A DNA stretch of 41,451 bases from Chitinophagales bacterium (GTDB lineage: Bacteria > Bacteroidota > Bacteroidia > Chitinophagales > UBA2359). Both the position numbers and the translations under genes were made by a program. Location: assembly GCA_020629005.1 (NCBI GenBank), contig JAHDEE010000034.1:1-41451 (forward strand), read 5' to 3'. Under the pieces are notes generated by a model that was given only the letters and a program-made list of their open reading frames with translations, did no database searches and was not told the origin of the DNA. Within the stretch, counting starts at the first letter, position 1, and each line of letters opens with the position of its first letter. Positions 1-41,451 of this stretch are shown piece after piece.

Positions 1-172
1 CCAGATAGAAGTGGAAATGCAGCTGCCAGTGCGACGACTGAGTGTGCTGGTGGCGGTGGCTCGACGATAGGAGAGACGCAGCCAGCAGATACACGAAGCG
101 GAGCAATGGTAGTTGCATTGCAACGGATAGCTGGTCAGCCCTTTACGCGTTGGAATTGGTTTTGCTCCAAAT
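1..172 (-). repeat. Dispersed 3'-end repeat, copy A (cut by window start)
   Basis: Read on the minus strand, this stretch begins TTTGGAGC two nucleotides after the GtrA stop codon. It then shares ordered blocks with three other places in the window (4650-4833, 25887-26103, 39083-39274): CCGTTGCAATGCA, CGCTTCGTGTATC, GAGCCACC and GCACACTCAGTCG. The distal end, GGGCTATTTTG in the other copies, is missing because the window starts here. The open frame of copies B and C is broken by stops in this copy, which argues for a non-coding repeat. Confidence 0.8.
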
Positions 173-32091: not shown

Positions 32092-32445
32092 ATGACCAAG
32101 AAAGTATATCACCTCAGCAATTGTGGCACTTGTAAACGAATCATCAAGGATTTGGAAATTGGTGATGAATTTGTCTACCAAAACATTAAAGCAGAACCGA
32201 TAACAGAGCAGCAGATTGAACAAATGAAAGACCTGGCAGGCAGCTATGAAGCCTTGTTTAGTCGAAGAGCGATGAAATATCGCTCACTGGGGCTTGCGGA
32301 AAAAGACCTTTCTGAAAATGATTATCGAAACTACATTCTTGAAGAATACACTTTTCTGAAGCGCCCAGTGATTATTCGGGAGGATCGGATCTTTGTAGGT
32401 AGTGCAAAATCGACCATAGCTGAGTTAAAGGCATTGTTGCAATAA
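32092..32445 (+). CDS. ArsC/Spx-family thioredoxin-fold protein
   Basis: The 117-residue protein has an N-terminal CGTC motif (VYHLSNCGTCKRI) and the ArsC/Spx-type domain with KAEPITEQQIEQM, ALFSRRAMKYRS and a LKRPVIIREDRIFVG segment. It probably acts as a thiol-dependent reductase or a redox regulator. ArsC is not certain because no ars genes are near and the arginine triad of ArsC is not fully visible. The ATG at 32092 has a good AAGGAAAAAG site before it. Confidence 0.82.
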   Translation: MTKKVYHLSNCGTCKRIIKDLEIGDEFVYQNIKAEPITEQQIEQMKDLAGSYEALFSRRAMKYRSLGLAEKDLSENDYRNYILEEYTFLKRPVIIREDRIFVGSAKSTIAELKALLQ

Positions 32446-32463
32446 TCGTCTGAAAATGGCGTA

Positions 32464-32503
32464 AAAAATCCCCCTTTGCCGAAAAGCAGAGGGGGATTTT
32501 AAT
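32464..32503 (+). terminator. Bidirectional intrinsic terminator
   Basis: AAAATCCCCCT and AGGGGGATTTT form a stem around TTGCCGAAAAGCAG, with A and T runs on both sides. It closes the ArsC-like gene and may also stop transcripts from the 919-aa gene. Confidence 0.85.
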
Positions 32504-32518
32504 TTTTCAAACTCTAAA

Positions 32519-32688
32519 AACTAGTGCTACGCAAACGAAGTCCGCAACACCTTTAAGGGCTTCTATTTCTGTCATCCTTCGTTGCTCGTCAGTCACGTAG
32601 CTACGGCTATGCTCCATCCTCGCGCCTAGGCTGACAAAAAGATAAGCTCCTTAAAGGTGTCACGTACTTTGTTTACGCAGCACTAGTT
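32519..32688. mobile_element. 170-bp long-inverted-repeat element (MITE-like), complete copy
   Basis: The left arm AACTAGTGCTACGCAAACGA and the right arm (its complement reads AACTAGTGCTGCGTAAACAA) match for about 40 bp, up to CACCTTTAAGG. The match continues more weakly as GCTTCTATTTCTGTCA versus GCTTATCTTTTTGTCA. The centre holds the palindrome CGTAGCTACG. There is no open reading frame or transposase. The stop codon of the adjacent minus-strand gene (CTA on the plus strand, 32683-32685) lies in the right arm. Confidence 0.8.
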
Positions 32689-35442
32689 GTTTCGCTTATT
32701 CATGATCGCTAGCAGGTGCAGCAAGTAGGCAAAGATTGGAGCGGCAATACTAGTGCCTATTACATCAGTCAATGCCAGATAGCCATAGATTGATAAGGTA
32801 GAGCAGCTGATCGCCAATACCAGCAAGGCTGTGATAATGGCAGCATGTTTAAATAAACGTGGGTCAAATGGATAAGAAGATAGTCTTGTCCATTGGAACA
32901 GATTCACCGTGCCTGTTCTGCCATTAGGCGCGCTGACTTGAGCAGACATCACAGTCAGGAACAGGAAGCTAAGTGTCAATAGTGCAAGAGTAATCAAACC
33001 CCATTGCCCCATTGTTGGCACATCTGCAGCTGTGAGATTACAGTTGGCATCACAACTGTTGTCTTCGGACAAAGAACCACCGATGCCGTTGCTAAAGTTG
33101 GCCGTATATCCTATAACCGGTTCATGGTAGAAGCTTACCGTGTACGTTCCTGCTGGACCTTCCGATATTGTCGGTGTTGCGTCAACTCCTCCGGCATCGA
33201 GAACACCCGTAGTACCAAGGTCGAACATCCAGGTTTCACCAGGCTCTGAAGTTATCGTTACTGTTTCATAGAATAGTTCGATGAAACCGTCTGGCTCGTT
33301 ATCAATGTTGTTTGCATTGCTACATGCACAAGGATCATCAATGTCTGAGCTCGGGTCGATTGGCGGGGGAGTGCAATCTCCTGTGGTAGCATCTGCAGAA
33401 ACGGTACAGTTAGCATCCCCGGTGTCTGATACGGTAACCACTACAGAAGTTCCATTTGCATACGGCCCAATCTGTGTGGGGTTTCCATCGCCAATGGCAG
33501 CAACAGTAGCACTACCCTGATCATCTCCAATATCATATGCTGAGCCAGATCCGAAATCGACGGTTACGCTGAGATAAAAATTATCTTCATCACCGTCTTC
33601 ACAAACATCTTCCACAGTCACCGTTGGATTCACACAGGCAGGTGAAGTTTGGCCAAATACGCAGATGTCAAAATTAGGTGTGCTTGTAGCGGTGGAGCTG
33701 TAATTGTAAACTCTAAAGTAGTACGTATCACCAGGATTGAGCAGGCCGGTAGCATCAACTGTTGGTTCAACACCATCATCAGCGCAGGCAATATTGACCA
33801 ATGAGCCACAAGATCCTGAATAGAGCTGCATAACTCCGTCGAACGGATCTGTTAGTGTGATCTCCGCATCTGTACCTCCAGCAACAAAAGAGAACCATAC
33901 GTCATCATTGGCAGTACCGCCTGTGAAACCATCACAAGTTTCATGCGCTATGCCGGAATCAGTTGCGGAGATGATAGAATAACTGCTTGTAGTACAAGTC
34001 TCATTCAATGTGAGGGCAATAGCTCCAGAGCAGTCGTCATTGGAGGGAGCAGAGGAGCAATTTAATGTCAAGCTTTCTGATACTTGCGAACAGTTAATGT
34101 CCGAATCATCTGTCAAAGTTACTATTACATCAGTCAAAGAAGCGTAAGCTCCAAAGTTGTAAGTTCCCGCTGCCGTGATGTCGGTTTGAGCTGCGGTACC
34201 CTGGTTATCTGTGATAGAGTAGGACGCTGCATCTCCCAACGCGGTCAAGTCAACAACAGCTTCAAATATTCCTTCATCAGAGCAATTGGTGTCGAAGGTA
34301 ACGGTTGGTGCTACACAATTGATTGGTGCACCTGATAGGCAGATCGTAAAGTCTGGAGAGGAAGTTGTTCCACTGAAGTAGTAAAAGACACGTACATAGT
34401 AGGTGTCTCCATCAACGACTGCCTCGTCGGTGATTGTTGGGCCAAAGTCAGCACAAGCCTGGGAAACCAGGCTTCCGCATGCGCCGCTGAAAAGCTCCAC
34501 AACACCATCAAAGTCATCTTCAACATCAATCGTTACTGTACTGCCGTTAGCGACGAAGCTAAACCAGACATCATCATTTGCCGTTCCAAGACAATCGTCG
34601 TCAGAGACACCAGAATCAGTGGCTGCTACAATCGTCGAAGAGATCGGTATACATATGGCATTGTGAGACAGTGAGATGGCACCTGAGCAATCATCATTTG
34701 CCGGGGGGGGAGTGCAGTCTGTAGATAAGGTACCTGAGAATTGCGAACAATCTATATCATCAGCATCATTCAAAGTGACCACTACATCTGTGTTGTTGGG
34801 ATATGGCCCAATGCTATAAGAGTCGGCAGAGGTGATACCTGTAATAGCTGCAGAACCCTGATCATCCGAAATGGAGTAAGAGGATGCATCTCCCACTGCG
34901 GAGATATTCACATCAACCTGAAAGTTCTCCTCATCAACACAAGAGGTTTCAAATGTAACTGTAGGAGCAGCACATGCTGCAGGAGCCCCAAAGACACAAG
35001 CGGTCATATCGGGAAAGCTAGTTGAAGTGTAACTGTACACACGGAACAAATAGGTCGCTCCATCTGTCAGGCCAGTCGCTTCAATGCTTTCTGGGTTTCC
35101 TCCATCCGCACAGCCAATGTTGGTGAGGGAGCCGCAAGTTCCTTCATAGAACTGGATAACAGCGTCAAAGTCTGCATCTACAAGAATGGTAGCTTCTGTA
35201 CCGCTTGCGACGAAGGAGAACCAAATGTCGTCGTTTGCTGTACCGGTAAAAATGCCGCATTCCTCAGCGGCCAATCCACTGTCTGTAGCATCTGCAACGG
35301 TTGCAGCTACGCTTTGGCAATTTGTTGTGTGTTCAAGTGTTACAGCAGTAGAACATTCATCTTGTGCGGTTGTACTTACAAAACAACAGAGAGTCAAAGT
35401 CAGCGCCAGAAACGCCGACTTCAAATTGTCGATTTTTTTCAT
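32683..35442 (-). CDS. Large secreted triple-repeat protein with VPTMGQWG (IPTL-CTERM-like) tail
   Basis: The 919-residue protein has a signal peptide (about 1-26) and three homologous modules of about 220 residues (28-248, 249-467, 468-690). Each holds a ANDDVWFSFVA motif, a VEDDFDGVVELFSG-type strand pattern, a TYYVRVY motif and paired cysteines, and each resembles a bacterial pre-peptidase beta-sandwich plus an Ig-like unit. A domain (about 700-800) with EPGETWMF follows, then VPTMGQWG (808-815) and a hydrophobic segment. This is the IPTL-CTERM-type sorting signal recognised by an exosortase (XrtH in other bacteria). Unusually, about 85 more residues with two further hydrophobic segments (about 866-890 and 893-913) follow. 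Confidence 0.88.
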   Translation of the reverse strand: MKKIDNLKSAFLALTLTLCCFVSTTAQDECSTAVTLEHTTNCQSVAATVADATDSGLAAEECGIFTGTANDDIWFSFVASGTEATILVDADFDAVIQFYEGTCGSLTNIGCADGGNPESIEATGLTDGATYLFRVYSYTSTSFPDMTACVFGAPAACAAPTVTFETSCVDEENFQVDVNISAVGDASSYSISDDQGSAAITGITSADSYSIGPYPNNTDVVVTLNDADDIDCSQFSGTLSTDCTPPPANDDCSGAISLSHNAICIPISSTIVAATDSGVSDDDCLGTANDDVWFSFVANGSTVTIDVEDDFDGVVELFSGACGSLVSQACADFGPTITDEAVVDGDTYYVRVFYYFSGTTSSPDFTICLSGAPINCVAPTVTFDTNCSDEGIFEAVVDLTALGDAASYSITDNQGTAAQTDITAAGTYNFGAYASLTDVIVTLTDDSDINCSQVSESLTLNCSSAPSNDDCSGAIALTLNETCTTSSYSIISATDSGIAHETCDGFTGGTANDDVWFSFVAGGTDAEITLTDPFDGVMQLYSGSCGSLVNIACADDGVEPTVDATGLLNPGDTYYFRVYNYSSTATSTPNFDICVFGQTSPACVNPTVTVEDVCEDGDEDNFYLSVTVDFGSGSAYDIGDDQGSATVAAIGDGNPTQIGPYANGTSVVVTVSDTGDANCTVSADATTGDCTPPPIDPSSDIDDPCACSNANNIDNEPDGFIELFYETVTITSEPGETWMFDLGTTGVLDAGGVDATPTISEGPAGTYTVSFYHEPVIGYTANFSNGIGGSLSEDNSCDANCNLTAADVPTMGQWGLITLALLTLSFLFLTVMSAQVSAPNGRTGTVNLFQWTRLSSYPFDPRLFKHAAIITALLVLAISCSTLSIYGYLALTDVIGTSIAAPIFAYLLHLLAIMNKRNN

Positions 35443-39275: not shown

Positions 39276-41378
39276 TTACGATAGTATTTGATAGACAAGG
39301 AAGCTTCCAAGGTATGCAACCGCACCCATGAAAATGAACTGCAAGATTGGCCAAAACCAGGAATCAGTTTCACGTTTGACTACAGCGAGGGTGCTCATGC
39401 ATTGCATTGCGAAAACGTAGAAAATCAGTAGTGAGAGTCCGGTGGCCAGCGTGTAGCTTGGTAGTCCCGTACGAGGGTTGGTCTCTTTGGCCATGTGCTC
39501 GCGAAGGCTGAGTTCATCGCTTTCGCCGAGGCTATAGATGGTTCCCATGGTGCCGACGAAGACCTCCCGGGCTGCAAAGGAGGTGATGAGGGCTATGCCC
39601 ATTTTCCAGTCCATGCCGAGGGGGCGTATGAGTGGCTCGATGGTTTTGCCTGCGATGCCGGCGAAAGAGTGTTCTAGTCGATTTGAGGCGATAAGATTCT
39701 CGGTGTCATCCGGTGTGAGATTTAGCTGTTTTGCCTCTGTGATGGCTTTTGTTTCTGCAATGGCCATTTGGTCTCCGTAGCTGAAGTTGGCCATGACCCA
39801 CAGGATGACAGAGATGACCATGATGATGCGGCCTGCTTCCCAAATGAAGGCCCAAACTTTTTGCAGGGTAGTTGTGAGCACGTTTCTCCAAGAGGGCATT
39901 CTGTAGGGGGGGAGTTCCAAAAGGAGAAAGCTTCGTTCGTTCGATTTTAGGATCTTTTTGAAAATCCATGCGGAGATAAGCGCGGCAAGCACACCCAACA
40001 AATAGAGTCCCATGAACACGAGTCCTTGCAGATTGAAGATGCCAATGGTGGTGGCAGGAATGACAAGTGCAATTAGTATTGCATAAACCGGTATTCGGGC
40101 TGAGCAGGAGATAAAGGGAGACACGAGAATGGTGATGAGTCTTTCCTTTTGATTGGAAATGGTTCGTGTGGACATGATGGCCGGGATAGCGCATGCGCCG
40201 CTGGACACCAGGGCAACTATGCTTCTGCCGTTCATGCCAAAACGGGCCATGAGTCCGTCAAAAAGATAGATGGCACGACTCATATATCCCGATTCTTCCA
40301 GTATACCGATCAGGAAGAAGAGTATTGCGATTTGGGGAATGAAAATGAGTACTCCTTCTAGTCCGGAAAGCAAACCATCATTGACAAGACTTAGCAGCCA
40401 GCCTTGTCCCAGCGCGTAACTGCTCCAGCCTTTGAGGGTTGAGAAGATATTTTCGATCATTTCCATTGGAATTCCTGCCCAGGTGAAGATGGACTGGAAT
40501 ACAAATAACATCAGTAGTGCAAAGATGATTGGGCCGGCTATGAAGTGTGTAAGTACGGAATCGGCCTTGTCTGAAAATGTGTCTTGGTTTTTCTGTTTTG
40601 CCTTTCGGAAGGATTTTAGTTTTGGGGCAAACTGGTCAAATCTGCCGAGGGTTTCTTGAACCTGGAGACCTAGTTTATCAATAGTTGATTGCGCTAAATG
40701 TTTGGCAATTGTTTGCTTTTGCGCTGTGTTGATGCCTAAGATCCAATCGTGGTGATGTAAGAGCAGGTTTGACTGATAAGTGGTTTTTCTTGCGAGATCG
40801 TTCTGAAGCTCTGCTGGCAAAAGTGCTGTTCTATTGTCTTGCTGCAGGAAGCTCTGATGGGACAAACCTTCTTCTGGATTTTTTAATACGCGTGCTATAA
40901 TGCTCTTTAGTTGATCCAGATTTTGTTGCATTCTGGCACTAATTTTTAGCACTGGGATGCCTAACCAATCACTCAATGCAGTGCTGTCTATTGCTGATTC
41001 TGGTGCTTCCTCATCAGCCAGATTGAGGGTGAGGATGAGTGGAATTTTGAGGTCAATCAGTTGGGAAAGCAGCAAGAAGTGTTTTTCCAATTGGTGAATG
41101 TTGGCCACATAGACAATTAGATCCGGAAAGGATTCATCAGTGGGGTTGGCCAATGTATTGGCGACGATACGTTCGTCTTGGGCATTTGGGTATAGACTGT
41201 AGGCGCCGGGAAAGTCGATGATCCTTGCTTGCGTCCCTTGTAGGTCGAGAGTTGAAGACTTTCGGTCTACTGTGACACCGGGGAAGTTGCCGACCTTTTG
41301 GTTGAGTCCGGTGAGGGCGTTGAAAAGGGTTGATTTCCCGCTGTTTGGATTGCCGATGAGGCCGATGATGTCAGGCAT
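39276..41378 (-). CDS. feoB: Ferrous iron transporter FeoB
   Basis: The 700-residue protein imports Fe(II). Residues about 1-165 form the G domain with G1 GNPNSGKST, G2 region GNFPGVTVDRKS, G3 DFPGAYSLY and G4-like NLADE. A helical guanine-dissociation-inhibitor region follows. The membrane domain has two Gate (nucleoside-recognition) repeats: ILFFLIGILEESGYMSR, SGACAIPAIMS and SFAAREVFVGTMG. It is somewhat shorter than the E. coli protein (about 770), within the normal range. No feoA is in the window; one could lie to the right. Its upstream region, from about 20 bp before the ATG, is occupied by the inverted-repeat element. Confidence 0.95.
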   Translation of the reverse strand: MPDIIGLIGNPNSGKSTLFNALTGLNQKVGNFPGVTVDRKSSTLDLQGTQARIIDFPGAYSLYPNAQDERIVANTLANPTDESFPDLIVYVANIHQLEKHFLLLSQLIDLKIPLILTLNLADEEAPESAIDSTALSDWLGIPVLKISARMQQNLDQLKSIIARVLKNPEEGLSHQSFLQQDNRTALLPAELQNDLARKTTYQSNLLLHHHDWILGINTAQKQTIAKHLAQSTIDKLGLQVQETLGRFDQFAPKLKSFRKAKQKNQDTFSDKADSVLTHFIAGPIIFALLMLFVFQSIFTWAGIPMEMIENIFSTLKGWSSYALGQGWLLSLVNDGLLSGLEGVLIFIPQIAILFFLIGILEESGYMSRAIYLFDGLMARFGMNGRSIVALVSSGACAIPAIMSTRTISNQKERLITILVSPFISCSARIPVYAILIALVIPATTIGIFNLQGLVFMGLYLLGVLAALISAWIFKKILKSNERSFLLLELPPYRMPSWRNVLTTTLQKVWAFIWEAGRIIMVISVILWVMANFSYGDQMAIAETKAITEAKQLNLTPDDTENLIASNRLEHSFAGIAGKTIEPLIRPLGMDWKMGIALITSFAAREVFVGTMGTIYSLGESDELSLREHMAKETNPRTGLPSYTLATGLSLLIFYVFAMQCMSTLAVVKRETDSWFWPILQFIFMGAVAYLGSFLVYQILS

Positions 41379-41397: not shown

Positions 41398-41451
41398 CTA
41401 GTGCTACGCAAACGAAATTCGCAGCACCTTTAAGGGCTTCTATTTCTGTCA
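41398..41451. mobile_element. Long-inverted-repeat element, second copy (cut by window end)
   Basis: CTAGTGCTACGCAAACGAA to CTTCTATTTCTGTCA matches the left arm of the element at 32519-32688 with about four differences over 54 bp. The rest lies outside the window. It begins 20 bp upstream of the feoB ATG, so the feoB promoter lies in or beyond it. Confidence 0.8.

Follow-up and report, generated by a model that had tools for sequence, protein, structure and literature searches.

A CTAG-flanked 166-bp hairpin at the end of a 919-aa open reading frame: a probable non-autonomous mobile element with apparent relatives across Bacteroidota

The stop codon of a 919-aa open reading frame (ORF) lies inside an inverted repeat in the genome of a Chitinophagales bacterium, raising the question of what this repeat is, how it came to lie there and whether it determines where the protein ends. 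The DNA analyzed (the window) is a whole contig of 41451 bp (G000:C168) from a draft genome of 6.89 Mb in 456 contigs (G000).

The hairpin element and its copies

A first-pass annotation had described a non-coding, MITE-like inverted-repeat element, and the repeat was found where it had been placed: two arms of 43 nt each (32516-32558 and 32649-32691) are 84% complementary and enclose 90 nt. Predicted RNA folds had energies of -72.9 kcal/mol for the plus strand (z = -9.7) and -87.7 kcal/mol for the minus strand (z = -10.8), and no shuffled sequence was as stable on either strand. The element and its parts are listed in Table 1; the TAG of the 919-aa ORF indeed falls within the right end of the element, as annotated. 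No Rfam covariance model matched the window at its gathering score, and over 32400-32800 there were sub-threshold matches only.

Table 1. Positions of the hairpin element, its parts and neighboring features in the window
Feature	Position	Strand	Basis or remark
Complete hairpin element, CTAG to CTAG	32521..32686	- (better-folding, G.U-rich strand)	166 bp; arms, fold, copies, boundaries
Left CTAG, one copy of the target-site duplication	32521..32524	.	Flank survey and empty sites
Right CTAG, other copy of the duplication; TAG at 32685-32683 (minus) is the stop of the 919-aa ORF	32683..32686		
Left terminal inverted-repeat arm, TGCTACGCAAACGAAGTCCGC...	32525..32558	+	Arm comparison
Right terminal inverted-repeat arm, TGCTGCGTAAACAAAGTACGT... 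on the minus strand	32649..32682	-	Arm comparison
Apical core TCACGTAGCTACGGCTATGCT, common to other genera and families with different arms	32593..32613	.	
919-aa ORF, stop codon inside the right CTAG	32683..35442	-	C-terminus common to element-free homologues
Second copy, first 54 bp only	41398..41451	+	Truncated where the contig ends; 51/54 bp match the first copy

The annotation had anticipated further copies, and searching G000 yielded at least 40 near-full ones with 90-100% identity, and a pattern made from the terminal repeats matched 223 times, compared with 2 matches for the reversed control pattern. The congener G001 contains at least 20 full copies at 91-94% identity. The second copy previously reported at 41398 is present, but as a stub and not as a full copy: it runs off the end of the contig, and its length of 54 bp is due to the assembly break, not to biology. 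Many contig ends of this genome fall inside the repeat, and the element is probably behind many contig breaks in these assemblies. Counted from the start codon of feoB (39276-41378, minus strand), the truncated copy begins 19 bp upstream, and it probably sits in the feoB leader.

Several other size forms were found: a class lacking the core (125 bp, three identical copies at different sites), a form of 65 bp, several of 33 bp and one of 187 bp, in which an internal repeat is expanded. Tandem copies also occur, adjoining each other and sharing one CTAG. Short, non-coding, multi-copy and bounded by terminal inverted repeats, the 166-bp element has the properties of a MITE, and together with the CTAG-sharing tandems and the two empty sites described below this upholds the earlier reading as a non-autonomous mobile element.

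Insertion site and stop codon

Almost all full copies start and finish in CTAG or a near variant, and two empty sites were identified. One lies in a 325-bp hairpin repeat (L293), which reads GCATC-CTTG-TTGGC; two loci at the matching site (L002 and L029) read GCATC-CTAG...CTAG/CTTG-TTGGC, with the element in opposite orientations. The other is an orthologous site, with TTGA-CTTT-CAGC in the congener (L453) and CTGA-CTAG...CTAG-CAAC in the window's genome (L024). The net insertion at the empty sites is 162 bp, and one tetranucleotide becomes two; these tetranucleotides are CTTG and CTTT, not CTAG itself. With CTAG on both sides of the copies, the sites display a target-site duplication. The 325-bp element is itself CTAG-ended (L293:16596-16920, on G000:C218) and has a two-branch fold: one branch is the core hairpin, and copies of the other in L002 and L029 are the insertion sites of the 166-bp element.

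Deviations from CTAG were balanced between the two sides among 108 distinct elements (17 vs 16 in family A, the elements of this genus). A Y1-like flank asymmetry, with a variable 5' and a fixed 3' tetranucleotide, had seemed possible on the first copies and was gone on this larger set. Among the ten flank pairs in which both sides deviate, three are identical (TTAG/TTAG, CTCG/CTCG and CCTG/CCTG), as a duplication of 4 bp predicts. We favor, without regarding it as proven, a 4-bp over a 2-bp target duplication at insertion; a 2-bp duplication of TA within CTAG is the less favored reading and keeps some plausibility, since only 3/10 of the doubly deviating pairs match exactly. CTAG is under-represented in 414 kb of G000 (553 seen vs 937 expected from trinucleotides), and TAG and TAA stops are used about equally among the ORFs called there.

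The annotation had also proposed that the end of the element defines the C-terminus of the 919-aa protein, a claim that homologues with the same C-terminus and no element would contradict. Such homologues exist in eight other genomes of the family. The ORF ends in ...CGA AAC AAC TAG, the homologues of its C-terminal region end within ~3 residues of the same place, and in none of these eight genomes does the element lie directly behind the homologue; the proposal has to be abandoned. As judged from these sequences, the stop codon of the gene was most likely present in the target CTAG before insertion, and the duplication kept it. Since the insertion duplicated the TAG, the 919-aa protein would have remained unchanged. 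Residues 808-824 of this protein match IPTL-CTERM below threshold, and a conserved tail of 95 residues comes after them, a layout resembling 'midcut-by-XrtH'.

The association with stop codons is not confined to this gene. In family A, 25 of the 68 elements abut an ORF of at least 100 codons, all 25 in the frame where CTAG gives TAG, and the TAG of the flanking CTAG is the actual stop in 24 of them (the exception is L404, which has GCAG as its flank and a TAA stop immediately after it). Other non-coding CTAGs in 414 kb of G000 are stop codons in 20 of 157 cases, which makes the enrichment at family-A elements about fourfold in odds (25/68, p = 0.00009; 24/68, p = 0.0002). In the family-B set, nearly all from G003, five of 40 elements abut such an ORF, three of them in the CTAG-TAG frame. 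Loss of insertions within genes accounts for the frame, but perhaps not for the whole enrichment. The overlap with stop codons is a by-product of the CTAG target, which explains the recurring annotation puzzle of repeats supplying stops: the duplicated target CTAG contains TAG, and the gene end is kept.

Relatives and strand-specific fold

With the whole element as query, three genomes of the same family (G003, G005 and G017) were found to share only its centre, which is enclosed there by quite dissimilar arms that form an inverted repeat of ~166 bp. A scan of 85,000 genomes with a pattern demanding the core showed, among the matches listed, the core in Marinilabilia, Draconibacterium, Microscilla, Flammeovirga, Phaeodactylibacter, Lewinellaceae, Mariniphaga, Carboxylicivirga and Sunxiuqinia of the Bacteroidota, and also in a few other lineages (Chlorobiota, Balneolaceae and Helicobacteraceae). 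Most of the listed matches are centred in an inverted repeat of 160-170 bp, often CTAG-ended, and a few look like coincidences inside genes. The core was a requirement of the scan, which makes the core's invariance in the scanned loci circular; the independent support comes from G003, G005 and G017. The distribution is patchy: the core is present in 5/20 genomes of the element's own family, and a stricter pattern, which would miss some variants, found it in 0/394 other genomes of an even phylum sample. Carriage by phages or plasmids was rejected, since the core matched neither viral contigs nor plasmids; four terminal-repeat matches in viral contigs looked like coincidences.

On sequence grounds, we regard these loci as a pan-Bacteroidota superfamily with a fixed length of ~166 bp, a shared apical core and lineage-specific arms. 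It is apparently undescribed, as no description was found in Rfam or in the literature searched, and the core sequence appeared in no paper of that literature. As a rule, bacterial MITEs go with a single insertion sequence (IS) and a single species group. Here, one architecture (~166 bp, apical core, compensating arms, CTAG flanks) occurs in many families of the Bacteroidota; their terminal repeats differ and no partner is apparent, and the superfamily offers a handle on what keeps such elements alive besides a transposase binding site.

The consensus fold of 35 diverse elements comprises 47 pairs, 41 of them with a compensatory change, and 87% of the fold cells are paired, compared with 64% when shuffled and 40-45% when slid. 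Inverted terminal repeats covary just as repeats, so that strand asymmetry is the stronger evidence. When arms were aligned regardless of strand, transition mismatches between them gave G.U over A.C on one strand at 193:71. This G.U excess was found in 33 of 39 lineages (33 vs 1), in outer and inner arms alike, with p-values that are optimistic because the lineages are partly related. Selection seems to see a single folded strand, either RNA or ssDNA. The inner fold and the apical loop are conserved and the ends diverge. Orientation of the elements showed no bias with respect to the gene (14:11 for the abutting ORFs of family A) and, by GC skew, none with respect to the replication strand (46/91); this randomness argues against a role in host mRNA and against replication-strand-dependent insertion.

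Candidate mobilizers and competing explanations

A transposase with matching terminal repeats, which the annotation had expected to be worth seeking, was found neither in the loci examined from this genus nor in Marinilabilia rubra, where repeat pairs lie ~151 bp apart and never at IS size. Loci from this genus yielded no autonomous IS with matching ends, G000 being a 456-contig draft that breaks at repeats. An IS-sized candidate in G003 (L171:4260-5080), with terminal repeats ~800 bp apart, encloses only a 129-aa lipoprotein-like ORF and no transposase; this pair is a copy that either contains a gene or has been interrupted by one. IS630 elements prefer CTAG, and MITEs driven by them have a TA duplication. 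The IS630 transposase (PF13358) is absent from G000, G001, G005, G017, M. rubra, JC049, Draconibacterium, Mariniphaga and Lewinellaceae SD302, and since it is missing from most carriers tested, IS630 was ruled out as mobilizer and the element does not class with the IS630-driven MITEs of RUP/Correia type. DDE_Tnp_1 (PF01609) has three matches in G000; its absence from four carriers (G001, G003, M. rubra and JC049) led us to reject an IS4/IS5-type MITE as well. Y1_Tnp genes are present in 12 of the 14 carrier genomes searched, with no match in G001 and G017 (both drafts). In 30 fetched loci with flanks of up to 1.5 kb the core was never next to Y1_Tnp, so that the REP/RAYT arrangement, copies flanking a Y1 gene, was not seen and a RAYT/Y1 mobilizer was discarded. 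A reverse-transcriptase mobilizer was set aside too, RVT_1 being found neither in G000 nor in the carriers G436, G437 and G440 (isolate Mariniphaga sediminis). The DDE search covered IS630 and DDE_Tnp_1, and draft genomes may hide a multi-copy IS. Flanks that deviate equally on both sides, the target duplication and the fact that copies without the core have spread make an unseen DDE transposase our first choice as mobilizer.

Known systems resemble the element in part. Bacterial MITEs such as RUP, NEMIS/Correia and nezha (PMC10969869, PMC3733652) are likewise short, non-coding and present in many copies with terminal inverted repeats, a flanking duplication, a strong transcript fold and mostly intergenic positions. 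The 166-bp element differs from them in its CTAG-like 4-bp flanks, in having no IS with matching ends found, and in that its length, apical core and one-strand fold are conserved phylum-wide whereas its ends differ by lineage. Coxiella QMITE2 is similar in overall size, terminal inverted repeats and highly folded transcript; it differs by duplications of 7-9 bp, and the available text mentions no phylum-wide conserved core (PMC10969869). The REP/RAYT palindromes (GTAG- and CGTC-tagged) are also palindromic, multi-copy and associated with TAG stops, since flanking ORFs are reported often to take their TAG stop from the end of a GTAG REP; CGTC REPs occur in Bacteroidetes without a dedicated transposase (PMC3733652), and the 166-bp element shares both traits as far as found. 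Unlike REPs, which measure 20-40 bp, it is 166 bp long, with a CTAG duplication and no RAYT linkage. CGTC REPs have a CGTC tag followed by an 8-9 bp stem starting with AT; the window reads CGTCAGTCACG..., with a stem not starting with AT, and no CGTC adjoins the core in G003, Marinilabilia, Microscilla and others.

We assign a probability of about 0.6 to the reading that the repeat represents a single copy of a non-autonomous mobile hairpin element, inserted at CTAG by a trans-acting DDE-type transposase and kept as a one-strand hairpin. The putative transposase would recognize the ends and make a 4-bp staggered cut at CTAG. As the empty sites show, ~162 bp are gained at a CTAG-like tetranucleotide that was there beforehand and then stands on both sides; copies also land side by side sharing one CTAG, as well as inside the larger hairpin repeat. 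At the present locus the homologues suggest that the 919-aa gene ended at this CTAG before the insertion, which duplicated its TAG. The statistics further indicate that a long one-strand hairpin is maintained, near-constant at ~166 bp, with a shared core and arms that diverge and compensate across Bacteroidota. Because core-deleted 125-bp copies also spread, the apical core may serve something other than end recognition, such as transcript stability or protein contact. Ends alone suffice for a classical MITE; they do not account for the fixed length, the strand bias or the conserved inner fold, and these three features are points against a simple MITE reading. It is possible, though we advance it only tentatively, that a folded single strand (RNA or ssDNA) with fixed length and constant apical loop is what is recognized phylum-wide while the ends drift, by machinery unlike IS630, IS4/IS5, RAYT or reverse transcriptase.

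Movement as folded ssDNA, with cutting and joining done by an HUH/Y1-type enzyme (RAYT or IS200/IS605-like) specific for the hairpin and not for double-stranded ends, would fit the better folding of one strand in nearly all lineages (33/39), the conserved inner fold and loop beside diverging ends, and the Y1_Tnp genes in 12/14 carriers; it is nonetheless unlikely, with no match in the two drafts and no core beside any fetched Y1_Tnp gene. A Y1 mechanism also predicts one target-derived and one element-encoded side, but CTAG deviations are equal on both (17 vs 16), and there is no orientation bias against GC skew (46/91). The proportion of family-A elements that lie in frame at a long ORF (25/68, 24 at its TAG, vs 20/157 other CTAGs) could instead mean that the host keeps the repeats as 3'-end RNA structures, terminators or mRNA stabilizers, hence many on stop codons. 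This is rendered improbable, even more so than ssDNA movement, by the lack of a gene-orientation preference (14 vs 11) though one strand folds better, by the congener without the element at one orthologous site, by the element-free homologues of the 919-aa gene and by family B, where only 3/40 elements abut a long ORF in that frame. We consider least credible a SINE-like parasite, a structured RNA reverse-transcribed and inserted at nicked CTAG by a reverse transcriptase in trans: the strand-specific fold, random insertion orientation and flanking duplication agree with it, but RVT_1 is not found in G000 or in the three other carriers named above, and both ends are precise, with no poly(A)-like or other copying tail.

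Other repeats accompany the element. A second abundant repeat, CATTTCCACTTCNATCNGGGCTATT, has 19 fuzzy matches in 414 kb of G000 (e.g. L299:17012 and L296:11740). Compared by eye, the first bases of the window (1-60) resemble its reverse complement, and the contig may be bounded by repeats on both sides. Palindromes of 19-27 bp, CTAGTGCC...GGCACTAG, adjoin full elements at L333:803, L335:785, L337:793 and L292:17747, and the ends of another subfamily in G001 (L340) match these palindromes.
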